A DNA stretch of 64,000 nucleotides from Pseudomonas saponiphila (lineage in GTDB: Bacteria > Pseudomonadota > Gammaproteobacteria > Pseudomonadales > Pseudomonadaceae). Location: assembly GCF_900105185.1 (NCBI RefSeq), contig NZ_FNTJ01000002.1:124001-188000 (forward strand). The letters run 5' to 3'. Position 1 is the first letter of the stretch. The number at the start of each line of letters is the position of its first letter. Positions 3,797 to 39,312 of the stretch are shown here, one piece after another. Below the pieces are notes generated by a model, which was not told the DNA's origin, did not search any database, and saw only the letters and a list, made by a program, of their open reading frames with translations. Position numbers and translations under genes: made by a program.

Positions 3797-6700
3797 CACG
3801 GCAGCGTCGACAACGGAACGCGGTACAAGGCATCGCCCGGCTCGGCATCGCCGAAGCGCACCCAGTTGGCCAGGTCGTTGTGGAAGGTTTCGTAGAGGCG
3901 GATCTTCGAATCCAGCTCGTCGATGAAATCTTCCTGCTCGGCCACGCTCAACGACAGCCACAGGTCCTGGGTCATGTTCAGCGACTTGCTGCGGTACGGC
4001 AGGCCTTCCAGGTATTCGCCGAGCACGCCGCCGTCGGCCAGGTTGCCGCCCTTGCGCAAGGCCGACGGGTCGCGGCTCATGTAGGCACTGGCGCTGGCGA
4101 TTTCCTGGAAGAAGTCCTTGGGCGAGGTCTGGGTCTTGCGCGCCGCGTCGACGATCAGTTTCAGCGACTGCTGCAAGTCGTTGAGCTGCAGCTTGGTCAG
4201 CATCACGCAGACCTGGAACGCCGGCAGCGCCGGGTTGGTCAGGTCGCGGTCGGCGGTCCAGGCGCTGACCAGTTGCGGCGCCTGGCTAGCCGCCTTGCGC
4301 CCAAGGAAATCCATGTGCATGGCGTAGCCGATGGCCGCCGATTTCTGCGCGAGGCTCGGCGCCGCCGCCAGCAGCGGGACTTCCTGCTTCTGGTTGCTGC
4401 GCACCTGATGCACCAGGTCGGCGAACACCGTGCCGATCTCGTCGACCCGTTCGCCGAACTTGCGCACATCGCCACCGGGCACCGGAATGTACAGGTCGCC
4501 GATCTTCGGGTTGGCGTCGGCGGTCAGTACCCGGTACTGGGTTTCCGCCTGGGCGTGGTTCTTCTTGCCGGCATCGGTGCGCAGGTGCAGGGCGTAGATC
4601 TTGATCTGCTTGCCCAAAGCCGCCTGGCGCACTTCCGCCTCGTTCATCTGGGTGCGGCTGTAGGGGTCGTTCTTGCGCAGGGCGCCGGCATCGCTGACCA
4701 GCAGGATCAGGCGGCCGCCGTAGCCCTTCCAGTCCATGCCTTCCACGGCCTGCATCACCCCGGCGAAGGCGTCTTCGTTGAACGAGTGGCTGGAGACGTT
4801 GGTGGCCTTGACCTGGCTCACCAGCTCCTGGAAACGCTGGGGATCGCGGCCCTGGTCGAGGGTCACCAGGGTCTTGGTCACATACTCCAGGCCTGGGGTC
4901 TTGCTGGTGTTGTTGCGAAAGCCCACCAGGCCGAAGCTGACGCTGTCCAGCTCGCCGCGCTCGGCGATCTTGCTCTGCAGCTCGTGCACCACGTCGCGCA
5001 CCTGATCGATGTACGGCTGCATCGACACCGAGGTGTCCACCACCAGCACCACCGCGGTGCGGAAGGCATCGGCGGCGGCCGGCGGGCTGTTCGCCGGCAG
5101 CGCCTTGCCGCTGCTGTCACTGATGCTCTGCGGGCTGTTGCCCGGGTCGATTGAGGCGACATTGAGCAACTGCACCGGCTGGCCGTTCTCGTCGAAGCTC
5201 TCCTTGGCGTCGAAGATCGGCAGCAGGTAGAACTGCTCCTGGGGCACCGCGCTGGCATTGGGTTCCAGGGCCAGCACCTGCTGCTCGTCCTGGGGATTCT
5301 TCTGCGCCCTGAGCAGCAGGTTCTTGGCCGCCGCCGGGTCCGCCAGCAGGCGCTCCAGCTCGCTGGCCTGGCGCACGAACATCACCGGCGCGCGGCCGGA
5401 GCGTTCGGTGAACTTCAGCACCAGGCTCTGCTTCCAGTCGCTGACCTGCTCGGCCGGCAACCAGCCGGCGCTGCGGCCGTCACTGGCGGCGCCCAGGCGC
5501 AGCCAGGAGCGGCCGTCAAGATTCTTGCGCTGATACACATAGAGCACCGAGAACGCCGGCACCGGCTTGTCCGGCGTGGCCCCCGGCTCGCTGGAAAAAC
5601 TCGCCCCCGGCTTGCTCAGCACCCGCTGGAACAGGGTCTTCTTGCCCGGCATCAGCAGCGGCCGCTGGCCGCCATCGACATCCGCCGCCAGCGCCTGCTC
5701 CACCGGCGGCGCCACCACGGCAGGCGGGGTGCCGGCCGTCGCAGCGGTCTTGGGCGCAGGCGCCGGGCTGTCGCCGGACAACCACCAGTACCCCGCACCC
5801 GCCACGGCCAGGGCCACCGCCACGGCAACCCCGGCCAGGGCCAGCACCGGGCCGCGCCGCTGTTCGGAAGCCCCACTGCCGGCGGGCGGCAGATTGGCGG
5901 TGCGCGGCGGCACCGCTGGCTCCTCGGGCGGCTCGCGGCGCGGCGCCGGTTGCGGCGCCTGTTGCGGAATCTCGATCGACACCGGGGTCAACCCGGCCAG
6001 GTCGTTGCTCTGAGGTGCAGACTGGGTTGCAACCTGGGGTGGCAGCGGCAACGGCTGGATCAGCGTCGCCTCCACATCGGCCGTCTCCGGCGGCAGGTTG
6101 TCCAGGGCCGCCAGCAAGGCCGCCGCGTCCGGGTAGCGTTCCGCCGGATCCTTGGCCAGCAGCTTGCGCAGGATGTGCTGGTAGCGCCCATGGTGCAGCG
6201 GCAGCTCCGGCAAGGGTTCGGTGAGGTGGGCCAGGGCCGTGGACAGCGCGTCGGTGCCGTTGTACGGCAACTCACCGACGAGAATTTCATACAGCACCAC
6301 GCCCAGGGCATACAGGTCGGCGCGACCGTCGATGTCCTGGCCACGGGCCTGTTCCGGGCTCATGTAGCTGGGCGTGCCCACGGCGAAACCGGCCTGGGTG
6401 AACTGGGTGCGATCGTCCAGGGACTTGGCGATGCCGAAGTCCGAGAGCACCGCCGTGCCATCGGCACGGAACAGGATGTTGGCCGGCTTCACATCGCGGT
6501 GCACCAGCCCCTGGGCATGGGCATAGCCCAGGGCCGAAGCGATCTGGCGGATGTAGGTCAGGCCCTGCTCCGGGGTCAGCCCGGCGGCGATGCGCTCTTT
6601 GAGGGTGCCGTTGGGCAGGTACTCCATGGCCATGTAGTACAGCTCGCCGACATTGCCGATGTCGTGGATGGTCACGGTGTGCGGGTGCGACAGCCGCGCC

Positions 6701-26975: not shown

Positions 26976-28913
26976 ATGTTATTTCAGCAATCCACACGAC
27001 TGGCACAGGTCAACTGCCCCCTGGGACCGGACGTCCTGCTGCTCAAGAGCATGGGCGGCGGCGAAGAACTGGGGCGCCTGTTCGACTACCAGCTGCAACT
27101 GACCTCCAGCGACGCCAACATCGACCTCAACCAGCTGCTGGGCAAGCCCATGGGCCTCAGCGTGCAGCTGGACGGCGGTGGCCAGCGGCACTTCCACGGC
27201 ATCGTCGCGCGCTGCAGCCAGAACATCGACACGGGCCAGTTCGCCAGCTACCAGGTGACCCTGCGGCCCTGGCTGTGGCTGCTCAGCCGCACCTCCGATT
27301 GCCGGATTTTCCAGCACCTGAGCATCCCGCAGATCATCAAGCAGGTGTTCCGCGACCTGGGCTTTTCCGATTTCGAAGACGCCCTGAGCCGCCCCTACCG
27401 GGAGTGGGAGTACTGCGTGCAGTACCGCGAAACCAGCTTCGATTTCGTCAGCCGGCTGATGGAGCAGGAAGGCATCTACTACTTCTTCCGTCACGAGAAG
27501 GACCGCCATGTGCTGGTGCTGGCCGACGCCTACGGCGCCCACAGCAGCGTGCCCGGCTATGCCACGGTGCCCTACTACCCGCGGGACGAGCAGCAGCGCG
27601 AGCGCGACCACCTGTTCGACTGGCACCTGGCCCAGGAGGTGCAGCCCGGCTCGCTGGAACTCAACGACTACGATTTCCAGCGCCCCAGCGCGCGCATCGA
27701 CGTGCGCTCGGCCATGCCCCGGCCCCACGCCGCCGGCGACTATCCGCTGTATGACTATCCGGGCACCTACGTGCAAAGCAGCGATGGCGAGCATTACGCG
27801 CAGACCCGCATCGAAGCCCTGCAAAGCCTGCACGAGCGCATCGAGCTCAGCGGCAACGCCCGGGGCCTGGGCGTGGGTAACCTGTTCACCCTCAGCGGTT
27901 TCAGCCGCCAGGACCAGAACCGCGAATACCTGATCGTCGGCATCCGCTACTACCTGGTCCAGGAGAGCCTGGAAACCGGCGGTGGCGGCGGCTCGGCGCA
28001 GTTCGAAAGCCACCTGACCTGCATCGATGCCCAGCAGAGCTTCCGCCCCCTGGCCAGCACCCACAAGCCCATGGTCCAGGGCCCGCAGACCGCACGGGTG
28101 GTGGGCCCGGCCGGGGAAGAGATCTGGACCGACCAGTACGGCCGGGTCAAGGTGCATTTCCACTGGGACCGCCACGACCAGTCCAACGAAAACAGCTCGT
28201 GCTGGATTCGCGTGTCCCAGGCCTGGGCCGGGAAGAACTGGGGCTCGATGCAGATCCCGCGGATCGGCCAGGAAGTGATCGTCAGCTTCCTCGAAGGCGA
28301 CCCCGACCGCCCGATCATCACCGGCCGGGTGTACAACGCCGAGCAGACCGTGCCCTACGACCTGCCGGCCAATGCCACCCAGAGCGGCATGAAGAGCCGG
28401 TCGAGCAAGGGCGGCAGCCCGGCCAACTTCAACGAAATCCGCATGGAAGACAAAAAGGGCGCCGAGCAGCTGTACATCCACGCCGAGCGCAACCAGGACA
28501 TCGTGGTCGAGGTCAATGAAAGCCATTCAGTGGGCAACAACCGCAACAAGAGCATCGGCCACGACGAGTACGTGACCATCGGCAACAAGCGCACGCGCAT
28601 CGTCCAGCACGTGGATGAGCTGACGGTGGGCGAGAAGAAGCTCGACAGCATCGGCCAGAGCTACGTGATCGAGGTCGGTGAACGCCTGCGCCTGGTGTGC
28701 GGAGCCAGCATCCTGGAACTCAATGCCAGCGGCCAGATCAACCTGTGCGGGGTCAACATCAGCGTGCATGCCTCGGCCGATGCCGAGATCAATACCGGTG
28801 GCGTGCTGCACCTGAACAACGGCGGCGGCCCGGGCACCACCACCGAGGGCCAGGGCGTGCAGGGAGCCATCAGCGCCAAGGCCAAAGCGCCCTTTTCCGC
28901 CCCCAAAGGCTAA
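26976..28913 (+). CDS. vgrG1: VgrG, T6SS spike protein
   Basis: The 645-residue protein has the gp27-like N-terminal half (FQQSTRLAQVNCP to about residue 370), the OB-fold gp5-like core (DQYGRVKVHFHWDR near 388, IPRIGQEVIVSFLEGD near 427) and a beta-helix needle. It ends soon after the needle with a short K/A/P tail, so it carries no extra effector domain of its own. It should trimerise, cap the Hcp tube and receive the PAAR-Rhs protein encoded two genes downstream. Confidence 0.95.
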   Translation: MLFQQSTRLAQVNCPLGPDVLLLKSMGGGEELGRLFDYQLQLTSSDANIDLNQLLGKPMGLSVQLDGGGQRHFHGIVARCSQNIDTGQFASYQVTLRPWLWLLSRTSDCRIFQHLSIPQIIKQVFRDLGFSDFEDALSRPYREWEYCVQYRETSFDFVSRLMEQEGIYYFFRHEKDRHVLVLADAYGAHSSVPGYATVPYYPRDEQQRERDHLFDWHLAQEVQPGSLELNDYDFQRPSARIDVRSAMPRPHAAGDYPLYDYPGTYVQSSDGEHYAQTRIEALQSLHERIELSGNARGLGVGNLFTLSGFSRQDQNREYLIVGIRYYLVQESLETGGGGGSAQFESHLTCIDAQQSFRPLASTHKPMVQGPQTARVVGPAGEEIWTDQYGRVKVHFHWDRHDQSNENSSCWIRVSQAWAGKNWGSMQIPRIGQEVIVSFLEGDPDRPIITGRVYNAEQTVPYDLPANATQSGMKSRSSKGGSPANFNEIRMEDKKGAEQLYIHAERNQDIVVEVNESHSVGNNRNKSIGHDEYVTIGNKRTRIVQHVDELTVGEKKLDSIGQSYVIEVGERLRLVCGASILELNASGQINLCGVNISVHASADAEINTGGVLHLNNGGGPGTTTEGQGVQGAISAKAKAPFSAPKG

Positions 28914-28931: not shown

Positions 28932-29357
28932 ATGACCTATCGCCTCAATGAATTGCAGTTCCAACTGCCTGCCAGCGAACTGCAGGACGCCTCGATCAAC
29001 ATCCTCAAGTTCCCGGCCCTGGGCACTTCGCTGATCGTCAGCCGCAGCCTGCTGGGCGACGGCGAAACCCTGGAGAGCAGCCTGGCCAGCCAACTGCAGC
29101 GGCTGGAACAGCAAGTGCAGGAACTGCGGGTCAAGGGTCCGCAGCCGGTGCTGCTGGGCCCGTCCCAGGACATTCCGGGCCTGGAGCTGCGCAGCCAGTT
29201 CAGCAAGGGCAGCGAGCAGGTGTTCCAGTTCCAGCTGGCCCTGGTGCTGCCCGGCACCCGGCAGATGCTCGCCATGAGCTACGTCAAGGCACAGAAGCTC
29301 GGCGACGCCGAAGCCGCGCACTGGGCGCAGATCAAGCACAGCCTGGTGCTGGGCTGA
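28932..29357 (+). CDS. eagR1: Eag-family (DUF1795/DcrB-like) chaperone for the Rhs effector
   Basis: The 141-residue protein matches the DUF1795 pattern (NELQFQLPASELQDASINIL, then GTSLIVSRS). Eag proteins dimerise and shield the N-terminal membrane helices of prePAAR effectors before loading on VgrG. The gene starts 18 bases after vgrG, and rhs starts 9 bases after its end. The vgrG-eag-prePAAR/Rhs-immunity order is the one described for P. protegens RhsA. A paralogue of identical length lies at 38887-39312. Confidence 0.9.
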   Translation: MTYRLNELQFQLPASELQDASINILKFPALGTSLIVSRSLLGDGETLESSLASQLQRLEQQVQELRVKGPQPVLLGPSQDIPGLELRSQFSKGSEQVFQFQLALVLPGTRQMLAMSYVKAQKLGDAEAAHWAQIKHSLVLG

Positions 29358-29366
29358 GGCCGGGGC

Positions 29367-32300
29367 ATGTCTGACGCGCTGTGGGCCGCCCGCCTGGGCG
29401 ACGGGCTGGAACACACCTCGATGATGGCCGACATCCTCGGCGGCGTGCTGGAGGTGGCGGCCAACGTCGCCATCGGCGCCCTGGCGACCATGGCGGTGGC
29501 CGCGGCGGCGGGTATCACCGTGGCCACCGGCGGCCTCGGTGCCTGCGTGCTGGGGCTGGTGGTGGGCGTGGTGGTCGGCGTGGTCATGAGCAAGACCGGC
29601 GCCGACAAGGGCCTGAGCAATTTATGCGAGGGCATCGGCAATGCCCTGTTCCCGCCCTCGATCCAGGCCACCATCGCCAGCGGCTCGAAAAAGGTCCTGA
29701 CCAACAACAAACCGGCGGCCCGCGCGGCCGGTATCGCCCCGCCGTCGCAGATCAGCGGCGACGGCGCCGAGGAAGGCGAAGCCACCGATACCCCTTCGGC
29801 GACCCCGGAGGAAGGCCCGGGCTTTCTCGACATGGCCAAGGAATTCTTCTCGCAGATGTGGCGGCCCACCGTGGCCTCCCCGGCGCCCGGCTCCCAGCCC
29901 AAGGAACTGGACCAGGTGACCTGCACCAAGCACCCGCCGATGCCCGTGCAGTACCTGGCCGAGGGCTCGGAAAAGGTCAGCATCGAAGGCCAGCCGGCGG
30001 TGCGCAGCGGCGACCGCAGCACCTGCGATGCCAAGGTGGTGTCCGCCGGGCCGATCTCCCCCAACGTGACCATCGGCGGCGGCTCGGTGGTGGTGCGCGA
30101 GATCCGCAGCGGCAAGACCCCGGGGGTAGGCCTGGCGGTGAGCGCGCTGATGATGCTCAAGGGCGGCAAGGGCAAGTTCCTCAGCAACCTGCCGTGCATG
30201 CTGATGGCCGGGGTCAATTCGTTTGTCGTCAGCCAGGCCACCAATGCGCTGACCCAGGCCGTCGTCGCCTCGACCCATCCGGTGCATGCAGCAACCGGGG
30301 CCAAGGTGCTCGGGGCCGACGACGATCTGGATTTCACCCTGCCAGGGCTGATGCCCATCGAATGGCAACGCTTCTACAACAGCCGCGATGAACGCCGTGA
30401 CGGCCTGCTCGGAGCCGGCTGGAGCCTACCTTACGAGGTCAGTGTCCAGATCGAGCCCCACCCCGAGGGTGGCGAACGCCTGCTCTACATTGATGAACAG
30501 GGACGCCGCATCGACATGGGGGCCATTGCCCTGGGCGGCGGAGCCTTCAGCCCCGGTGAAGGCTTGAGCGTGCGACGCAACGACAACGGGCAGTTGCTGA
30601 TCGAAAGCAGCGACGGCCTCTACCGTCTGTTCGAGCCGCTACCAGACGATCCTTCGCGGCTGCGCCTGGGCCAGCTGGGTGACCGCAACGACAATCGTCT
30701 GCACCTGGAATACGACTCGTCCGGGCGGCTCTGGCTGCTGCGCGACACCTTTGAACAGGCGCAGCTCGAACTGGGCTACAGCACGCACTGGCCCGATCGG
30801 ATTGCCCAGGTCGAACGGCTGTACCCCGATCAGCAACGGGAAGTGCTGGTCAGCTATGACTACGATGCCGCAGGGAACCTGGCACAGGTCCGCGATAGCG
30901 AAGGGCAGGTCCAGCGGCGCTTCGCCTATGACACCGGCCAGCGGATGACCGAGCACCAGTTGGCCACCGGGCTGCGCTGCTTCTACCAGTGGACCCTGTT
31001 CGCCGACCAGCAGTGGCGCGTGACCCGTCACTGGACCGACGAAGGCGATAGCTATCAGTACAACTATGATCTGGAAGCCGGCATCACCCAGGTCACCGAC
31101 AGCCTGCAGCGCCTCAGCCGCCGGCGCTGGAACAGCCAGTTGCAGATCGTCGAGTACACCGACAACCTCAACCAGACATGGGCCTTCGAGTGGAACGACG
31201 AACGCCAACTGCTCAGCGCCACTGACCCCTTGGGAGGGCGCTATGCCTATAGCTACGACGAAACCGGCAACCTGATCGCCGAGACCGATCCTCTGGGGCA
31301 CAGCCATTCGACCTTGTGGCTGGAACACTGGTCGCTGCCACAGACCCTGACCGATCCCGCCGGCAACAGCTGGCACTTGCGCTACGACCCCAGAGGCAAT
31401 TGCATCGCCGAAACAGACCCGCTAGGCCAGGTGACTCAGTACCGCCATGACGCACATGGGCAGGTGGTGGAGATCATCGATGCCGCGGGAAGAAGCCGGA
31501 AGATGCGCTGGAACTCGTCCGGGCAATTGCTTGAACACCTGGATTGCTCGGGCTATCCGACTCGCTTCGAATACGATCGACGTGGCAACGTGAAAGCCAT
31601 CATCGATGCCCTTGGCGAGCACACCCGGTTCCATTACGACTGCCAGGGACGGTTGCTGAGCAGCCAACTGGCCGATGGCCGCGCCGAGCATTTTCAACGC
31701 AGCAGCAACGGCCAACTGCAGGGCTACACCGACCCGTCCGGCTACACCACGCTCTACCAGTACAACCGGCGCGGGCAGATACGCCAGCGCACCGACGCCC
31801 ACGGCCGACAGGTCCGGTTCGACTATGACGCGTTCGGACGGCTGCTGGCGCTCACCAACGAAAACGGCGAAAGCTATCGCTTTGCCTGGGATGCCGGCAA
31901 CCGTCTGAGCGAACAGCAGGATCTCGACGGCAGTGCCAAGCGCTATGGCTATGACCCACTGAACAACGTCGTCGAACTCCAGGCCCATGCCGCGCCTTAT
32001 GGCTCCGGACCGAGCACCGTGCCCGCGCAACCAATCGCGCCGATCATCCACAGGTTCGAGCGCGATGCCGTGGGGCGGCTGCTGGCCAAGATCACGGACG
32101 ACGGACGCAGCCAATACACCTACGATCCCTTGAACCAACTGACCGCCGCCAGCTTTACCGACAACCTCGGCAACCAGCAGGCACTGAGTTTCAGCTACGA
32201 CGCCCTGGGCCAATTACTCGAAGAACACACAGCGGCCGGCAGCCTGAAACACCGATACGACGAACTGGGCAATCTGACTCAGACCCAGCTACCGGACGCG

Positions 32301-33827
32301 CGCTGGCTCAATCGGCTCTATTACGGCAGTGGCCATCTGCACCAGATCAATCTCGATGGCCAGGTAATCAGCGATTTTCAACGTGATCGCCTGCACCGTG
32401 AAGTGCTGCGCACCCAGGGCCAGATCAGCACCCGCAGCGAATACGACCGTTGTGGCCGCCTGCGCGCACGCCTGCGGCACTCCAGCCTGTTGGCAAACAC
32501 CTTGCCGACAGCCCCGGAACGGCACCTCGAGTACGACGACAGCGATAACCTGGTAGGCCTGGCCGAGCGGCATGTCAACGGGCAACATCGACAACTGTTC
32601 CATTACGACGCGACCGGGCGAATCATCGCCAGCCAGGACGGCCTGCAGGGCCAGAAGGAAACCTTCGCCTACGACGCCGCCGCCAATTTGCTTGACGGCC
32701 CGAAAGCAGGCGCCGGGCTGGTGGTGCACAACAAGTTGCTGACCTACCAGGACAAGCGCTACCGCTACGATGCCTTTGGACGAATGGTTGAAAAACGCAG
32801 TGGTCGGCGAGGCGTGCAACGGTTTGCCTACGATGCCGAACACCGTTTGATCGAAGTGCGCAATCAGACCGCCAACGGCGAAACCCTGGTCAGGATGCGT
32901 TACGACGTCCTGGGTCGACGCATCAGCAAGAGTGAGTACGACAGCCAGGGCAACCTTCTGGGTGAAACCCGATTCATCTGGGATGGCCTGCGGCTGCTGC
33001 AGGAACAGCGTAATCAACAGACCAGCCTCTATGTCTATGAAGACCTGGGCCACGCGCCCCTGGCGCGGGTCGATGGCCTCGGCGCACAACAGAAGATCCG
33101 CTACTACCACAACGACCTGAATGGCCTGCCTCACCAGCTTTGCGAGCCTGACGGCCACAGCGTCTGGCAGGCCCGTTATCAGGTCTGGGGCAACACCGTC
33201 GAAGAAAAACGCGAGCCCTACTACATCGAGGAACAGAATCTCAGGTTCCAGGGCCAGTACCTGGACCGCGAGACCGGGCTGCACTTCAACACGTTCCGTT
33301 TCTACGACCCGGATATCGGACGCTTCACTACGCCGGACCCCATCGGCCTGGCCGGAGGCTTGAACCTCTATCACTATGCTCCCAACCCCATCGGCTGGAT
33401 CGACCCGCTGGGCTGGATCTGCAAATCGGCCTACAGCGGCAGAAGGGGCACCACGAAGGCCAAGGCCGACCTCGAGAGGAACGGTTTCACTGTGGTAGCT
33501 GAAGAACTGACCATGAAGGTCAAGCATCCAGTCACCCAGAAGTCCTACCGCATCAGGGCAGATATCATCGCCCAGGACAAAGCCGGTAACTACCACGTGT
33601 TCGAAGTCAAGAATGGCAGCGGCAAACTGACCAAGAACCAACAGGGATCGGGAATGTTCGACATGAACAATCCGGCCAACACCCACGGTGGCCTGGGCGG
33701 CGGCCTGATCAGACCGTCCGGTGCCACCCAAGGCCAGTTCGAAGTGGCGACCAAAAGCGGCAAAAGCACACCGTTCGGTGGAAATGGCGCACAGCATTCG
33801 GCCAACTTCTGGCTTCTTCGCTATTGA
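29367..33827 (+). CDS. rhsA: prePAAR-PAAR-Rhs effector with C-terminal PD-(D/E)XK-like nuclease tip
   Basis: The 1486-residue protein starts with a prePAAR motif (AARLGDGLEH, residues 7-16). Two hydrophobic regions (about 22-72 and 254-297) flank a PAAR domain with His189 and Cys220; this is the class II layout that needs an Eag chaperone. Many YD/Rhs repeats build the cocoon (about 310-1350), closing with GRFTTPDPIGLAGGLN and DPLGW (1346-1350), where the tip is normally cleaved. The last 136 residues are the toxin: RADII (Asp1399) and FEVKNG (Glu1413, Lys1415), then LTKNQ, resemble a PD-(D/E)XK nuclease. The nuclease call is motif-level inference. The tip is visibly less GC-rich than the core. 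Confidence 0.9.
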   Translation: MSDALWAARLGDGLEHTSMMADILGGVLEVAANVAIGALATMAVAAAAGITVATGGLGACVLGLVVGVVVGVVMSKTGADKGLSNLCEGIGNALFPPSIQATIASGSKKVLTNNKPAARAAGIAPPSQISGDGAEEGEATDTPSATPEEGPGFLDMAKEFFSQMWRPTVASPAPGSQPKELDQVTCTKHPPMPVQYLAEGSEKVSIEGQPAVRSGDRSTCDAKVVSAGPISPNVTIGGGSVVVREIRSGKTPGVGLAVSALMMLKGGKGKFLSNLPCMLMAGVNSFVVSQATNALTQAVVASTHPVHAATGAKVLGADDDLDFTLPGLMPIEWQRFYNSRDERRDGLLGAGWSLPYEVSVQIEPHPEGGERLLYIDEQGRRIDMGAIALGGGAFSPGEGLSVRRNDNGQLLIESSDGLYRLFEPLPDDPSRLRLGQLGDRNDNRLHLEYDSSGRLWLLRDTFEQAQLELGYSTHWPDRIAQVERLYPDQQREVLVSYDYDAAGNLAQVRDSEGQVQRRFAYDTGQRMTEHQLATGLRCFYQWTLFADQQWRVTRHWTDEGDSYQYNYDLEAGITQVTDSLQRLSRRRWNSQLQIVEYTDNLNQTWAFEWNDERQLLSATDPLGGRYAYSYDETGNLIAETDPLGHSHSTLWLEHWSLPQTLTDPAGNSWHLRYDPRGNCIAETDPLGQVTQYRHDAHGQVVEIIDAAGRSRKMRWNSSGQLLEHLDCSGYPTRFEYDRRGNVKAIIDALGEHTRFHYDCQGRLLSSQLADGRAEHFQRSSNGQLQGYTDPSGYTTLYQYNRRGQIRQRTDAHGRQVRFDYDAFGRLLALTNENGESYRFAWDAGNRLSEQQDLDGSAKRYGYDPLNNVVELQAHAAPYGSGPSTVPAQPIAPIIHRFERDAVGRLLAKITDDGRSQYTYDPLNQLTAASFTDNLGNQQALSFSYDALGQLLEEHTAAGSLKHRYDELGNLTQTQLPDARWLNRLYYGSGHLHQINLDGQVISDFQRDRLHREVLRTQGQISTRSEYDRCGRLRARLRHSSLLANTLPTAPERHLEYDDSDNLVGLAERHVNGQHRQLFHYDATGRIIASQDGLQGQKETFAYDAAANLLDGPKAGAGLVVHNKLLTYQDKRYRYDAFGRMVEKRSGRRGVQRFAYDAEHRLIEVRNQTANGETLVRMRYDVLGRRISKSEYDSQGNLLGETRFIWDGLRLLQEQRNQQTSLYVYEDLGHAPLARVDGLGAQQKIRYYHNDLNGLPHQLCEPDGHSVWQARYQVWGNTVEEKREPYYIEEQNLRFQGQYLDRETGLHFNTFRFYDPDIGRFTTPDPIGLAGGLNLYHYAPNPIGWIDPLGWICKSAYSGRRGTTKAKADLERNGFTVVAEELTMKVKHPVTQKSYRIRADIIAQDKAGNYHVFEVKNGSGKLTKNQQGSGMFDMNNPANTHGGLGGGLIRPSGATQGQFEVATKSGKSTPFGGNGAQHSANFWLLRY

Positions 33828-33842
33828 ACGAGTAATCGAGAA

Positions 33843-34469
33843 ATGAAAGCAGACACCAAGGAATTGCGCAGCAACTTCGAAAAAGCACTCCAGCTTTGCT
33901 TGAAGAGTGAGCTCTCGGCTTATCCCGGAGCCAAAGTCACCAGGAACAAAGTGGTGATTGCACATAAGGAATCGGGCGCCGTGGCGACCTTGCATTTCGA
34001 GTATCTGGCCAATACCCGCGCCTACGAAATCATCATCTTCGTCGAACACCCGGCCCTGCAGGCCGAGATCGAGCGCATAAGCCCACCCTACCCGTCCAAC
34101 CTGGCCAATCCGAAATTGGTCTACTGCATGTCGACAGTCAGCGAAAAAGACGGCTGTCCACTGCTGCCAGTGACAGAGCAAGGCATTGAAAACACCTGCC
34201 AGGTGATTCTGCGCCGGCTCCAGGATGTTCACCTGCCTATCCTGTACAACCTCTTCAATGTCAGCCCCGCACTGGCGAGCGATGTCATCGAGAGGCCAAA
34301 GTATTACGCCTATCCGGTGCCGCTGATCTTTATCGCCTTGAAAACCAACGCAATCAAACCGGACGACGGAACCCTTGCGAAGATTCTGAGCGAGCAGACC
34401 CTGGGCTATACCAAGCACCAGGAACTGAAAGAGTCGTTCAACAAGCAACTCCTGACAGAACTGGGCTGA
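33843..34469 (+). CDS. rhsI: Probable immunity protein for the Rhs toxin tip
   Basis: The 208-residue protein has no signal peptide or membrane segment, as expected for a cytoplasmic antidote to a nuclease. It starts 15 bases after the rhs stop and, like the toxin tip, is more AT-rich than the rest of the locus. I recognise no named domain. The call rests on position, size and shared composition with the toxin. Confidence 0.75.
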   Translation: MKADTKELRSNFEKALQLCLKSELSAYPGAKVTRNKVVIAHKESGAVATLHFEYLANTRAYEIIIFVEHPALQAEIERISPPYPSNLANPKLVYCMSTVSEKDGCPLLPVTEQGIENTCQVILRRLQDVHLPILYNLFNVSPALASDVIERPKYYAYPVPLIFIALKTNAIKPDDGTLAKILSEQTLGYTKHQELKESFNKQLLTELG

Positions 34470-34478
34470 GCGCTTGCT

Positions 34479-34592
34479 TTAGAGCGGGGCAGATCGCCGC
34501 ACCACGCTTTCCGGCGCGGCTGACGAACGCCAGCGCGACCTGCAGATCCTTTTCGAAGCCCTCGAAGGTCGCGCGATCGGCGGCGTAATACG
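34479..34592 (-). pseudogene. Remnant of the small MKFID-type gene (first of three copies)
   Basis: Read on the minus strand this gives YYAADRATFEGFEKDLQ and then ALAFVSRAG, clearly related to YYAIDRATFERFEQDLP and ALAFVTRAR in the gene at 38633-38851. The first 35 or so codons, including the start, are missing; the similarity breaks off next to the Rhs-core scrap at 34594. It is a dead 3' fragment. Confidence 0.7.
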
Positions 34593-34593
34593 C

Positions 34594-34671
34594 CGCTGGC
34601 TCAGGCGCTTCGATGAGCCGACCGTGGGACGCCTGACCACGCCGGAGCCTATTGTGATCAGGAACAGATGA
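34594..34671 (+). pseudogene. Scrap of Rhs-core C-terminus
   Basis: The + strand reads RRFDEPTVGRLTTPEPI, then stops at 34669-34671. It aligns without gaps to FRFYDPDIGRFTTPDPI near the end of the Rhs core in the intact effector. The scrap lies just before an Imm11-like immunity gene, as if a former Rhs tip had been lost and only the edge of the core and its immunity gene survive. The fragment is short, but the G-R-x-T-T-P-x-P-I spacing is diagnostic. Confidence 0.6.
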
Positions 34672-35282
34672 TGATCTTGAGCTGGAAACCCCCGATCCGA
34701 TACAACCCGAAGCTGATCGGTTCCTACGACGTCGAGAGCGGCGCCTATGAAACCCCGGGCTCCAGCTTCGACTACCTGGCCCTGCTCGCCGGGCAGCCGT
34801 ATCCAAAGACGACGGACACGCCGCCGGTGTTTTTCCAGTGCAAGGCGAAGAAGCTGCTGGAGCACGATTGCCTGTGGCTGCTGGGGGGCATTCCCCTGGT
34901 GTCGGCGCGCCTGGCGGACTTTCTCCGCCAGCAGGCGCCGGCCGATGTCGAGCTGATCCAGCCCTTGCGCCTGGTGGCCGACCACCAGGAGGTCAGCCAG
35001 CCGTACTACATCGTCAACGCCATCCAGGCCGTCAAGGCCATCGACCACGCGCGTTCCGAAGCACAGCGCGACGATGACGGCACCCTGCTCTACTTCAACA
35101 AGACCTGGTTTCTCGAAAGCGCCCCAGGCATGGGCCAGATCGCCCGGGAGCCGGAGTCCGGGGACTTGTTGATCAGCGCAACCCTGGCCGACCGCTTGAT
35201 CGACACCGGCTTCAAGGGTGACAAGGGACTGGGGCTGTACAGCGCCGAACGGCGTTTCGTGCCTTATCGGAACAATGCCTGA
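34668..35282 (+). CDS. Imm11-like (DUF1629) orphan immunity protein
   Basis: The 204-residue cytoplasmic protein has the layout of the DUF1629/Imm11 family: an N-terminal YDVESGAYETPG segment, LGGIPLVSARLADFL in the middle, the hydrophobic/acidic VELIQPL segment and a C-terminal LISATLADRLIDTGFKG. Members of this family are encoded beside polymorphic toxins. Here no toxin tip precedes it, only an Rhs-core scrap, so it is probably an orphan that still protects against kin carrying the lost toxin. A second in-frame ATG at 34671 is an equal start. The family call is from memory of the pattern. Confidence 0.6.
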   Translation: MMILSWKPPIRYNPKLIGSYDVESGAYETPGSSFDYLALLAGQPYPKTTDTPPVFFQCKAKKLLEHDCLWLLGGIPLVSARLADFLRQQAPADVELIQPLRLVADHQEVSQPYYIVNAIQAVKAIDHARSEAQRDDDGTLLYFNKTWFLESAPGMGQIAREPESGDLLISATLADRLIDTGFKGDKGLGLYSAERRFVPYRNNA

Positions 35283-35300
35283 GCGCCTGGGGGCATCCGA

Positions 35301-35564
35301 TCAGATCGCCGAGCCGCGATTCTTGCCCGGCTGGATGATCAGTAACTGATCCAGCTCGCGCCGTCTGGCGCGGGTAACGAACGCCAGCGCGGCGGGCAGG
35401 TCCTACTCGAACCGCTCGAAGGTCGCGCGATCGATGGCGTAGTACTCCTCGTAGTCGACCACGCCGAGGCTGACCGGGAAGGAGACGTAGTGCTGGCCGC
35501 TGAGAGCTTCGATGCCCATGGAGAACATCTCCTCGCGGTTGACGAACAGATCGATGAATTTCAT
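35301..35564 (-). pseudogene. Second copy of the MKFID-type gene, broken by a nonsense codon
   Basis: From the ATG at 35564 the frame reads MKFIDLFVNREEMFSMGIEA and on to ATFERFE. It then meets TAG at 35403-35405 where the copy at 38633-38851 has CAG (Gln). Past this codon the frame stays open with DLPAALAFVTRAR and a longer tail (RRELDQLLIIQPGKNRG) to TGA at 35301-35303. The ancestor was thus 87 residues, and one C-to-T change inactivates it after residue 53, unless the stop is suppressed. Function unknown. Confidence 0.8.
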
Positions 35565-35577
35565 CTCGGTCCCGTGT
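35365..35577. repeat. Left copy of a roughly 213-bp direct repeat
   Basis: This segment covers most of the small MKFID-type gene and is nearly identical to 38652-38864, with about half a dozen differences seen by eye, in the same orientation. The two copies lie on either side of the IS21-family element and mark a local duplication. Confidence 0.85.
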
Positions 35578-35618
35578 AAGGCAGCCACTGGCCAAGGGTG
35601 GTCTTTCGAGGCGGACGA

Positions 35619-35900
35619 TCAGACCTCGACCAGGTGATAACGTCCGGGTTCGCGCCAGGAAATCCGGGTGAACGTGCCGCTGAGCAGGTTCATGTCGCGC
35701 AGGTATTCAAAAACCTCGGCCGGGCACCATTCCTTGCCATCGGCAAAGGCCACGCCGAGCGTGCGCAAGGCATCGAAGAGCTGCGCCTTGCGCACGTCGT
35801 CCGCTACGTCCAGGGCATACACCCCCGGCTCGATCGTTGCGCCAAAGCCCAGGGCCACCAGGGCCGCGTCCAGCGAGGCGTCCATGACCCGAACACGTAC
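35619..35900 (-). pseudogene. 3' part of a 110-codon gene split by the IS21 element
   Basis: This is the larger piece of an interrupted gene. It reads from the target-site copy at 35894-35900 (V-R-V) into VMDASLDAALVALGFGATIE and ends LVEV at 35619. An ATG at 35885 could still start an 88-residue protein, but the original start (GTG at 38599) is on the other side of the insertion. Joining the two halves through a single CACGTAC restores one open frame of 110 codons. No known domain is recognised. It lies in the operon eag - MKFID gene - this gene - second MKFID copy. Confidence 0.8.
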
Positions 35901-35912
35901 TGCGGATTTCGG

Positions 35913-36000
35913 AGCACCGTGACCGGCCGTTTCGGTTGATCGTGACCGGTCATTTCGCTAACGCGTGACCGCTCATTTCGGTAGCAACGTGACCGATTTT
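35913..36000. repeat. Terminal multiple repeats of the IS21 element (left end)
   Basis: CGTGACCG recurs four times here, followed by variants of GCCGTTTCGG, GTCATTTCGC and GCTCATTTCGG. A related site in inverted orientation occurs near the right end around 38494-38520. Such arrays are the transposase-binding sites of IS21-family elements. Confidence 0.75.
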
Positions 36001-36125
36001 CCGCCTGTTCCGAAACAGGTGGTCACGGCTTACCGAAATCGCCGGTCACGACTTAGCGAAAGCCTTCCCCTTCGTTGCGCATGACCTGATGCGCCGCCAT
36101 CCTCGACCGATTTCGGGAGAGGAAG

Positions 36126-37811
36126 ATGGCGGCGCCGCGAGTAGCCATGCGAAACATCAAAGAATGTCTGCGCCTCAAGTTTGAGGCCGGCTTGTCCCAC
36201 GAGAAGATTGCCCGTGCCTTGCAGCTGTCCAAGGGCGTGGTTAGCAAGTACATCGCGGCGGCGCGGGTGGCCGGGCTGGACTGGCCGGCGCTGGTGGCCA
36301 TGGACGAGGCCGCGCTGGCGGCCGCCTTGTTTGCACCGACGTCGACGAACAAGCCGCGCGGTGAGCGAGTGCTGCCCGATGTGCTGAGCATCCACCGCGA
36401 GTTGCGACGCAAGGGCGTGACCTTGCAGCTGCTGTGGGAGGAATATCTCGCCGCGCATGCGGGCCAGCCGACCTACCGCTACACCCAGTTCGTCGAGCAC
36501 TACCGGCGCTACGCCCAGACGCTCAAACGTTCGATGCGTCAGCTGCACCGTGCGGGCGAGAAGCTATTCATCGACTATGCCGGGCCGACGCTGCCGGTGG
36601 TCGACCCGGCCACCGGCGAAGTGCGCCGGGCGCACATCTTCGTCGCCGCCCTGGGCGCCTCGAATTACACCTATGCCTGCGCGACGCCAGGCGAAACCCA
36701 GGTGGACTGGCTGACCTCGCTGGGCCAGGCTCTGACCTACTTTGGCGGCGTGCCGGAAATGGTTGTGCCGGACAATCCGCGCGCCCTGGTCGCCCAGCCG
36801 GATCGCTACGAGCCGGGCCTGAACCGGGCCACGCTGGAGTGCGCGCGTCATTACCAGACGGTGATCCTGCCGGCACGGCCACGCAAGCCTCAGGACAAGG
36901 CCAAGGCCGAGGTGGCGGTGCAGGTGGTCGAGCGCTGGATCATGGCGCGGCTGCGCCATCGGCAGTTCTTCAGCCTGCATGCGCTTAACCAGGCCATCGC
37001 CGAGCTGCTGGAGGATCTGAATCGGCGCCCGTTCAAGCGGCTCGATGGCTGCCGGCGCGACTGGTTCGAGCGCCTGGATCGCCCGGCCTTGCGAGCGCTG
37101 CCGGTGCATCCCTACGAGGTCGCCACCTTCAAGCGCTGCAAGGTCAGCATCGACTACCACATCGAGGTCAATGGCAGCTTCTACAGCGTGCCCTCCGCCC
37201 TGGCCCGGCAGAACGTGGACGTGCGACTGACGGCACACACCCTGGAAGTGCTGCATGGCAACCGGCGGGTGGCCAGCCACCTGCTGCTGGGGCGACGCGG
37301 CGCTTACAGTACCCAGCGCGAGCACATGCCCGCGGCGCACCAGGCGCATCGCGAATGGACGCCACAACGCCTGCTCGACTGGGGCGCGCGGATCGGCCCC
37401 TACACGCGCCAACTGATCGATCACCAACTGACCCACAAGCCGCACCCGGAGATGGGCTACCGCGCCTGCCTCGGCCTGCTCTCGCTGGCCCGGCGCTATG
37501 GCAATGCACGCCTGGAAGCCGCTGCCGAACGTGCCGTACACCTGCGCGCCTTCACCGGGCGCAGCGTGCGCAACCTGCTCCAGCAAGGCCTGGATCAACA
37601 GCCGCTGCCCCAGCGTGCCGCCGAAACGACCTTACCCGGCGACCACGAGAACGTCCGTGGCGCCGACTACTACCAACCCCCGCAACAGGAGCTGTTCGAT
37701 GATGCCGCAACACACCCTGAATCAACTGCACCAGCTACGCCTGGACGGCATGGCCCGCGCCCTGGAAGAGCAATGGACGCTGCCGGCCAGCCACAGCCTG
37801 AGCTTCGATGA
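36126..37811 (+). CDS. istA: IstA, IS21-family DDE transposase
   Basis: The 561-residue protein has an N-terminal helix-turn-helix (about 22-45, [20 protein letters not shown]) and an RNase-H-like core with the catalytic triad Asp150 (FIDYAG), Asp216 (VVPDN) and Glu262 (KAKAEVAVQ). A beta-rich C-terminal domain ends with [10 protein letters not shown]. About 40 residues follow that motif, so the gene overlaps istB by 113 bases. That is longer than the few-base overlap usual in the family, and the tail reads as low-complexity P/A/R. Confidence 0.95.
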
Positions 37812-38448
37812 ACGCCTCGGCCTACTGCTCGACCGCGAACTGGCCTGGCGTGACAACCAGCGCCTGGTACGGCTGCGCAAGAAGGCCAAGCTCAAGTACG
37901 CCAACGCCTGCCTGGAAGATCTCGACCGCCGCACCGGACGCGCCCTGGACGAGCGTCTGATCGCCACCCTGGCCAGTGGCGACTGGATCCGCCAGCAGCA
38001 CAACCTGCTGCTGACCGGCCCGACCGGTGCCGGCAAAACCTGGCTGGCCTGCGCCCTGGGCAACCAGGCCTGCCGCCAGGGCTATAGCACCCTGTACCTG
38101 CGCACCCCGCGCCTGCTGGAACAACTGCGCATCGCTCATGGCGACGGCAGCTTCGGCCGTACCCTGCAACAGCTGGCAAAGGTCGACGTCCTGGTGCTGG
38201 ACGACTGGGCGCTAGCCCCGCTGGAGGAAGGAGCCCGGCATGACCTGCTGGAGGTGATCGACGACCGCGCTGGCAGCCGCTCCACCATCCTGACGAGCCA
38301 ACTGCCCATCGAGCACTGGCACGGCTGGATCAACGACCCGACCCTGGCCGATGCCATCCTCGACCGCCTGGTGCACAACGCCTACCGACTGACGATGAAA
38401 GGCGAGTCGCTGCGCCGAAAAAAAGCCGAGGAACAAGCCGCATCGTGA
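37699..38448 (+). CDS. istB: IstB, IS21-family AAA+ transposition helper
   Basis: The 249-residue ATPase has Walker [19 protein letters not shown] near residues 105-122 and Walker [10 protein letters not shown]. It opens [20 protein letters not shown], typical for IstB. AGGAG lies 7 bases before the first ATG; a second ATG follows immediately. It stimulates IstA and assists target selection. Confidence 0.95.
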
Positions 38449-38541
38449 CCGATGCGATTACAATCCAGAACCCGCGCAACCGGGGTGGAAGCACCGGTCA
38501 CGTATTAGCGAAACGCTCGGTCACGTTCACCGAAATCCGCA

Positions 38542-38599
38542 CACGTACTGTGTCGGCATCCGCCTTTTCCACATAGACGTGCAATTCTTGCTCAGTCAC
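38542..38599 (-). pseudogene. 5' part of the 110-codon gene split by the IS21 element
   Basis: A GTG at 38599 with GAGGTG upstream begins TEQELHVYVEKADADTVRVR, which runs into the right target-site copy and then the insertion sequence. The continuation is at 35619-35900 in the same frame. It follows the small gene at 38633-38851 by 33 bases, so the two were co-transcribed. Confidence 0.8.
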
Positions 38600-38632
38600 T
38601 TACAAACACCTCAGTTAAGGTTTTGACCTCAC

Positions 38633-38851
38633 TCAGATACTGGCGCCGGGCCTGGCGCGGGTAACGAACGCCAGCGCGGCGGGCAGGTCCTGCTCGAACC
38701 GCTCGAAGGTCGCGCGATCAATGGCGTAGTACTCCTCATAGTCGACCACGCCGAGGCTGACCGGGAAGGAGACGTAGTGCTGGCCGCTGAGTGCTTCGAT
38801 GCCCATGGAGAACATCTCCTCGCGGTTGACGAACAGATCGATGAATTTCAT
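38633..38851 (-). CDS. Small conserved protein of unknown function (third, open copy)
   Basis: The 72-residue cytoplasmic protein reads MKFIDLFVNREEMFSMGIEA, then SGQHYVSFPVSLGVVDYEEY and ATFERFEQDLPAALAFVTRAR. Its C-terminus is shorter and different from the 87-residue ancestral form seen at 35301-35564, so this copy may itself be slightly truncated. It lies 35 bases after an orphan Eag chaperone gene. I do not recognise the family. Amplification beside Rhs debris suggests an immunity-like role, but that is inference. Confidence 0.7.
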   Translation of the reverse strand: MKFIDLFVNREEMFSMGIEALSGQHYVSFPVSLGVVDYEEYYAIDRATFERFEQDLPAALAFVTRARPGASI

Positions 38852-38864
38852 CTGGGACCCGTGT
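38652..38864. repeat. Right copy of a roughly 213-bp direct repeat
   Basis: This segment is nearly identical to 35365-35577 and in the same orientation. The differences include the base that creates the premature TAG in the left copy. Confidence 0.85.
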
Positions 38865-38886
38865 CTCAGCGAAGGAATCAGGCCCG

Positions 38887-39312
38887 CTAAGGCTGAGGCT
38901 TGAGGCTCTGCATGACCTGTTTCCAGGCGGGTTCGTGGTGCACCAGGTCTTGCGGCGTGGTGGTCAGGGTGGTGATCAGCACCGCTGGCTTACGCTCGAC
39001 GAACACCTGGCGCAGCATCAGCTCGCGGCCTTCGCGCTTCCAGCTGTAGTCCAGCAACACCGCGGCGTGACCGTGCATGTCGAAGTCCCAGCGCTTGATC
39101 AGGTTGAAGCCCGGCAGTTGCTGTTCGGCGGAGCGCAGCTGTCGGTCGACATAATCGGCGAAAGCCGCATCGCCCTGGCTCGGGTCGCGGCTGATGACGA
39201 AGCTGGCTTCCTGGGCACCGCCCACGGCCGGCAGCTTGAAGATGTTGATGCTCTGGTCCTGCCAGGCGTCGGGAATATCGAGATCGGCTTCTTGAATGCG
39301 ATAGGAGGACAA
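38887..39312 (-). CDS. Orphan Eag-family (DUF1795) chaperone with TTG start
   Basis: With the TTG at 39312 the product is 141 residues, the same length as the Eag protein at 28932-29357, and the two align from the start (SYRIQEADLDIPDAWQDQSI against TYRLNELQFQLPASELQDASI). GGAACGCC precedes the TTG. The open frame extends much further upstream, but that part is low in family-like sequence and was rejected. No prePAAR effector follows it, so it is an orphan that may serve an effector encoded elsewhere or a lost one. Confidence 0.75.
   Translation of the reverse strand: MSSYRIQEADLDIPDAWQDQSINIFKLPAVGGAQEASFVISRDPSQGDAAFADYVDRQLRSAEQQLPGFNLIKRWDFDMHGHAAVLLDYSWKREGRELMLRQVFVERKPAVLITTLTTTPQDLVHHEPAWKQVMQSLKPQP

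Follow-up and report, generated by a model that had tools for sequence, protein, structure and literature searches.

A field of remnants between two converging effector modules

We analyzed a 64,000-nucleotide stretch of Pseudomonas saponiphila DNA (contig NZ_FNTJ01000002.1, positions 124,001 to 188,000; here called the window) from a 7.38-Mb genome assembled in 4 contigs. At positions 34470 to 39312 of this window, two effector modules of the type VI secretion system (T6SS) converge on opposite strands. A preliminary description of the same DNA had noted, behind a working Rhs-immunity pair, a scrap of Rhs core, an Imm11-like immunity gene with no toxin, three copies of a small gene (gene A below), a second small gene (gene B) split by an insertion sequence, and an orphan Eag chaperone. 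All of these elements are present in the sequence, and one more had been missed, namely, the tail of a toxin tip that we call tip Y (38592-38628). From left to right, the interval holds a gene A relic (− strand), the Rhs core scrap (+), Imm11 (+), gene A copy 2 (−), gene B (−) split by an IS21-family element, the tip Y tail (−), gene A copy 3 (−), and Eag (−). An Rfam scan of the whole window returned zero matches.

The first module, on the + strand, is intact and runs VgrG, EagR, PAAR-Rhs, RhsI. The VgrG spike protein (26976-28913; Phage_GPD, Gp5_trimer_C, and Phage_base_V domains) lies upstream of the active Rhs effector, next to which stands an EagR-type chaperone (28932-29357; DcrB, 1.8e-19). 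The effector itself (29367-33827; 1,486 amino acids [aa]) carries RHS repeats, DUF6531, PAAR, and Rhs_assc_core, with PAAR scoring above and prePAAR_I below the Pfam cut-off. Its presumed cognate immunity gene, RhsI (33843-34469; 208 aa), follows after 15 bp and adjoins the identical Rhs tip type in three related loci (L013, L014, and L016; handles with L denote loci, those with G genomes). RhsI matched no Pfam or NCBIfam family and nothing significant in a PDB sequence search; its ratio of nonsynonymous to synonymous substitution rates (dN/dS, throughout from a pairwise counting method on small numbers) ranges from 0.19 to 0.51.

Two further + strand features follow. The Rhs core scrap (34606-34652) is tiny: it spans 47 bp, and 10 of its 16 residues are shared with the local Rhs core. 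Its score of 27.7 bits was reached by none of 1,000 dinucleotide shuffles (best shuffle, 26.2), and at the DNA level, the Rhs cores of L010 and L159 match it with 81% identity over the 47 bp. It precedes an intact Imm11 gene without its Rhs toxin (34668-35282; PF07791, 8e-9, 35.5 bits against a gathering cut-off of 22.1), for which a PDB sequence search gave nothing significant. In both L010 and L159, a close Imm11 relative begins 6 bp past an Rhs gene, which in L010 carries an AHH nuclease tip (PF14412, 1e-12). The scrap and the stretch right before Imm11 appear to be the remains of an Imm11-paired Rhs gene. No AHH tip was found elsewhere in the window genome. A different arrangement is seen in genome G061, where Rhs (L158:1471-6579) appears as a pair of overlapping frames. 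The second matches AHH weakly, short of the Pfam cut-off, and next come a 239-aa gene with no Pfam match and then Imm11; the Rhs-side gene order there is unlike that of the window.

Gene A encodes 87 aa in most relatives. All three window copies on the − strand are real, although none is both full length and open. Copy 1 (34504-34593) is a relic comprising residues 40-69 only (profile match, 24 bits; protein match, E 8.8e-6), with 71-85% DNA identity to 13 other copies; copy 2 (35301-35564) is full length with an in-frame TAG at codon 54; copy 3 (38633-38851) is a 72-aa frame that diverges past residue 67. Intact gene A (L016, L020, and L025) had no Pfam or NCBIfam match at E values up to 1, and the window pieces of genes A and B gave no significant family either. 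PDB searches with the gene A sequence and profile returned nothing significant, and a Foldseek search with a model of pLDDT 79.6 returned no convincing match (best E, 0.83).

Gene B is likewise broken. Its 3′ part (35619-35900, − strand) is 94% identical to the intact gene B of L010 over query residues 13-109, and its 5′ part (38542-38599, − strand) has a GTG start at 38599. Between them lies a 2,641-bp IS21-family element (35901-38541, + strand; IstB_IS21, 1.8e-83, and Mu-transpos_C_2) with IstA at 36126-37811 and IstB at about 37702-38448; its insertion is flanked by a 7-bp target duplication, CACGTAC, of which the copy at 35894-35900 is counted in the 3′ part. For roughly 100 bp at the end of the element, at least 38 additional matches were found in the genome, across all four contigs. 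The intact L010 gene B gave no significant Pfam or NCBIfam family and nothing significant in a PDB sequence search.

The tip Y tail (− strand), the last 11 codons of a toxin plus its stop, reads VKTLTEVFVSD in the same frame as the L010 effector. It sits between gene A copy 3 and gene B, overlapping the gene B start, and since this junction is 96.7% identical to L010 DNA over 92 bp, a tip Y toxin formerly occupied this site.

A second module with exchangeable tips

We fetched 18 loci that carry relatives of gene A. The first eight (L009-L016), from P. protegens, P. chlororaphis, P. piscis, P. morbosilactucae, and other Pseudomonas, all have Eag, an effector, and small genes in the matching stretch, converging on Rhs. 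Effectors scanned in these relatives score below the Pfam cut-off for prePAAR and above it for PAAR. Because their scaffold matches P. aeruginosa Tas1 (3e-113 and 8e-115), it is of the Tse6/Tas1 type, with an exchangeable tip. Four tips were seen on it: Ntox46, as in Tse6, with Tsi6 (L009, L013, and L014); a tip that we call X, with gene A (L012, L015, and L016); tip Y, with gene B (L010 and L011); and a fourth, X2. Gene B directly follows tip Y in 4/4 loci (L010, L011, L062, and L063). On the strength of this gene order, we assign genes A and B and this Eag to a second module and not to Rhs.

In the window, the local − strand effector gene is absent. Its place is marked by a scar (38852-38886) at which the 3′ flank of Eag is fused to the sequence preceding gene A. 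Save for two point differences, the junction matches that of G061 (L158), which also lacks the effector; in L016 and L010, the effector gene stands after Eag instead.

Three genomes (G125 with L034 and L063, G031, and G341) carry two effectors on this scaffold in tandem, about 2 kb apart; in G125, tip X and gene A are followed by tip Y and gene B. These tandem arrangements look like displacement intermediates.

Gene A as the likely immunity gene of tip X

Tip X was searched for in 398 Pseudomonas genomes and in 201 genomes of the family to which L025, a Mycobacteroides locus, belongs. Full-length tip X occurred in 9 and 4 of these, respectively, and in 13/13 cases gene A followed, 17-41 bp past the end of the profile match. 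Gene A is therefore likely the immunity gene of tip X, the role being read from this pairing, and the suggestion in the preliminary description that the small genes form an immunity family gains in weight. Neither the pairing nor gene A itself was described in those parts of the literature that we consulted.

Some tip X match was present in 36 of the 398 Pseudomonas genomes, and 30 loci were fetched. Sixteen of them carry related tips scoring 74-95 bits; 14 of these 16 have a different, 177-aa gene 47-59 bp on, defining X2 (related to X by hhalign, E 2e-24), and the other two (L135 and L136) have neither gene A nor the 177-aa gene adjoining. Gene A was found within 100 bp of none of the 16, and 759-910 bp on in three. 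Downstream of broken tip X pieces, gene A is present in L133, L134, L149, and L150; in L153, a partial tip X match, it is not downstream. Pieces of the X2-type 177-aa gene stand behind the tip X-gene A pair in L124 and L125. The combination of tip X2 and its 177-aa neighbor itself was seen in L064-L069, L074, L075, L078-L080, L137-L148, L151, and L152.

Tip X is predicted to fold like the streptococcal NAD+ glycohydrolase (NADase) SPN: its closest solved structure is PDB 4KT6, and the motifs PxGxE and WxPGG are found in 117 of 120 tip X proteins listed. The tip X profile gave nothing significant against PDB sequences, and neither tip X nor tip Y, within its effector, matched a significant Pfam or NCBIfam family. 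Since tip Y resembles tip X only weakly (hhalign probability, 70), we do not call it an NADase. Tip X relatives numbered 289 proteins in one search and, among the 120 listed, reside on PAAR, DUF6861, RHS, VgrG, DUF4150, and WXG100-like proteins; the gene A-tip X pair supplies a simple immunity candidate for a widespread, predicted NADase-type toxin domain. Tip X was not found elsewhere in the window genome.

Of 30 Pseudomonas loci fetched for gene A, 28 have a further toxin, immunity, or Eag gene no more than 1.5 kb away (exceptions, L045 and L054), so within this genus the small genes are not scattered far from toxins, a pattern that would have spoken against the preliminary description. In a 369-genome sample of the class, only the window's own genome matched gene A. 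Copies of gene A are interspersed with Tsi6-like genes in L017, L018, L019, and L021; in L019 and L021, these genes stand behind proteins of about 488 aa, that of L019 belonging to DUF6861. This family seems to carry toxin tips; our literature search on it found nothing. Outside Pseudomonas, gene A relatives occur in the Mycobacteroides family loci L025, L102, L105, L108, and L109, in 4/5 directly after tip X, and one tip X protein of this family (P0173) has a WXG100-like domain.

Two described toxins invite comparison. In the sections of the report available to us, Tne3-Tni3 at the P. aeruginosa Tse6 locus has an SPN-like NADase tip with PxGxE and WxPGG motifs and an immunity protein, Tni3, reported as IFS-like (PMC9846239). 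Tip X shares with Tne3 the Tse6-type scaffold, the SPN-like tip, and both motifs. Gene A encodes an 87-aa protein with no detected IFS match: no IFS chain was among the two matches of the gene A profile or the best 50 of 109 Foldseek rows, the latter from a model with a pLDDT of only 79.6. On position, the pair of X2 and the 177-aa gene may be the better counterpart of Tne3/Tni3. The 177-aa gene (L064) gave no significant Pfam or NCBIfam family and no PDB sequence match, so its likeness to Tni3 rests on position and on that paper's description. The second toxin, Tne5 of Pluralibacter gergoviae, has 4KT6 as the closest solved structure of its tip, according to the text accessible to us (PMC13285283), as does tip X; the comparison was made without the Tne5 sequence, and the protein was not recognized among the 120 listed of 150 tip X matches.

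A stranded chaperone with a probable distant client

The EagT2-type chaperone (38887-39312, − strand; DcrB, 2.1e-35) is intact and has no effector adjoining, and to this extent it had been described correctly as an orphan. An orphaned function is very unlikely. The window genome has two DcrB matches, EagR and this gene, and at C2:281460, 118 kb from Eag, it carries an effector with the identical scaffold type. The C-terminal domain of this distant effector matches Tne2 (PDB 6b12, 2e-73) and its scaffold matches Tas1; there is no Eag gene in the 9 kb around it. At this distant site (L160), the Tne2-type effector (3961-5187) is followed by a 156-aa presumed immunity gene (5184-5654), with a 610-aa gene downstream of the pair that we take to be glmS-like.

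A similar layout is known from P. protegens Pf-5, where EagT2 (PFL_6099) stands beside no effector and is required for Tne2, as stated in the portion of the study available to us (PMC7773334). Pf-5, too, has two Eag genes, the second not beside an effector, and its Tne2 lies elsewhere. To that portion of the study, our comparison adds the finding of relatives in which a prePAAR effector belonging to this Eag lies next to it, in which case the published isolation of eagT2 would reflect loss of that neighbor.

Seven genomes with a syntenic locus were compared (G000, G061, G071, G272, G293, G325, and G376). In this small sample, the two that lack the local effector are the two that have the distal Tne2-type effector, with at most six candidates scored per genome; their distal effectors are identical at 405 of 408 residues. 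G071 has a distal effector with an unrelated tip. The dN/dS of Eag is 0.08 against the other effector-less lineage, compared to 0.08 and 0.12 for effector-bearing pairs and 0.07-0.11 for mixed pairs. Hence Eag is probably not orphaned and would serve the Tne2-type effector 118 kb away. If true, this reading explains why eagT2 of P. protegens stands apart and warns against calling such genes orphans.

Origin of the array

We read the locus as two converging T6SS effector modules whose tips have likely been replaced successively, leaving mostly broken predicted immunity genes behind, and whose Eag is predicted to serve a distant Tne2-type effector; we give this reading a probability of roughly three in four. 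An incoming effector-immunity module would recombine in, anchored in the conserved effector scaffold or in the Rhs core, after which the old toxin would be cut away and its immunity gene pushed downstream. Gene A would neutralize tip X, the predicted NAD+ glycohydrolase, and would decay with no tip X left in the genome; the chaperone would be retained under selection because of its distant client. What the window offers in support is an intact Rhs-RhsI pair followed by predicted immunity genes whose toxins were not found in the genome, remnants of two displaced toxins (47 bp of an Rhs core and the final 11 tip Y codons), and displaced genes that match intact pairs elsewhere, namely, A with tip X in 13/13 cases, B with tip Y in 4/4, and Imm11 with the AHH-tipped Rhs of L010.

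The preliminary description had envisaged successive tip replacement at a single Rhs gene, with immunity genes kept after their toxins were lost. Toxin replacement and displaced immunity genes stand, but not Rhs alone, since a second prePAAR module is involved. That all remnants derive from one Rhs gene is highly improbable: the Rhs core scrap before Imm11 and the adjacency of Imm11 to Rhs in relatives would suit such an origin, but genes A and B and Eag lie on the opposite strand and in relatives form part of the separate Eag-prePAAR module, and L010-L012, L015, and L016 contradict it. Simple retention is not supported for the small genes, gene B and all three copies of gene A being broken; Imm11 and RhsI are intact. 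A stronger form of retention, in which displaced genes are kept as a working defense against toxin-bearing relatives, we consider unlikely overall. The dN/dS of the window Imm11 is indeed 0.10-0.14 against its three close relatives in L158, L010, and L159 (0.27 against L015), and an orphan immunity protein protects in Serratia, according to the text of that study available to us (PMC10539506). For gene A, however, dN/dS is 0.09-0.15 in three pairs with tip X present and 0.42-1.0 in the three displaced pairs among L009-L011.

A more serious rival, above all for copies 2 and 3 but less likely than not as an account of all the copies, traces the copies of gene A to local duplication or conversion and not to repeated displacement of modules. 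Copies 2 and 3 share 97.5% identity over 201 bp, and a near-identical short sequence precedes copy 3 as well as the gene A that stands behind gene B, in copy 2 and in L010. Yet copy 1 is only 82% and 80% identical to copies 2 and 3, respectively, the two gene A copies of L009 differ by 9.5%, and a displaced module has left its mark in the tip Y tail that lies between copy 3 and gene B. Highly improbable, on the other hand, is that gene A has an accessory or regulatory part in type VI loci instead of conferring immunity. Such a role would fit its frequent occurrence without tip X and its lack of a match to any known immunity family; against it, gene A stands behind tip X on DUF6861 proteins too, as well as in four L025-family genomes, including one with a WXG100-like protein, and it does not adjoin the related X2 tips.

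Returning to successive replacement at two modules, several points weigh against it. The order of events is not uniquely readable. Copies 2 and 3 are nearer to each other than to any of 11 other gene A copies compared, so local duplication or gene conversion may have produced at least one of the two. Four other pairs with a displaced gene A give dN/dS values of 0.16-0.31, so the contrast in constraint is not clean and the counts are small, and the constraint on Imm11 may only reflect recent displacement. As to the toxins, tip Y was not found elsewhere in the window genome in a search run without a positive control. The tips that went into the tip X query had first been encountered next to gene A, and both searches used shared genome samples. 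Gene A relatives occur in 48/398 Pseudomonas and 19/201 L025-family genomes, far exceeding full-length tip X and leaving most copies without a full-length tip X within reach; the neighbor of gene A in L025 itself gives no tip X match. Finally, the identification of the chaperone as EagT2 rests on layout, family, and the presence of a Tne2-type gene, without the Pf-5 sequence.

With somewhat less assurance than for the history of the locus, we favor a wider proposal. Gene A may found an unnamed immunity family, unrelated to IFS, that acts against a second branch of streptococcal-type NADases and travels with its toxin between Pseudomonas type VI and actinobacterial type VII effectors, while Eag would have lost its own effector and survived through Tne2 118 kb away.

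Relation to known immunity gene arrays

Displaced immunity gene arrays formed by effector displacement are already known. In Vibrio cholerae, arrays of T6SS immunity genes grew as one effector after another was displaced; in the published model, homology anchors an incoming module, which takes the place of the old toxin and shifts the immunity gene of that toxin rearward, and leftovers are predicted as a result (PMC5361080, in the passages available to us). The locus described here resembles those arrays, as presented there, in having an intact pair in front, displaced immunity genes behind, and the leftover 3′ end of an effector. What sets it apart is that a second array joins from the opposite strand, that one effector gene has gone altogether, and that most of the displaced genes are broken. 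While the history of such arrays is usually inferred, a single locus here preserves traces of two lost toxins together with genes at several stages of decay, and these can be checked in relatives. To the known picture, the window adds an unnamed immunity candidate paired with an SPN-like tip in Pseudomonas and actinobacteria, and a possible explanation for a stranded chaperone.

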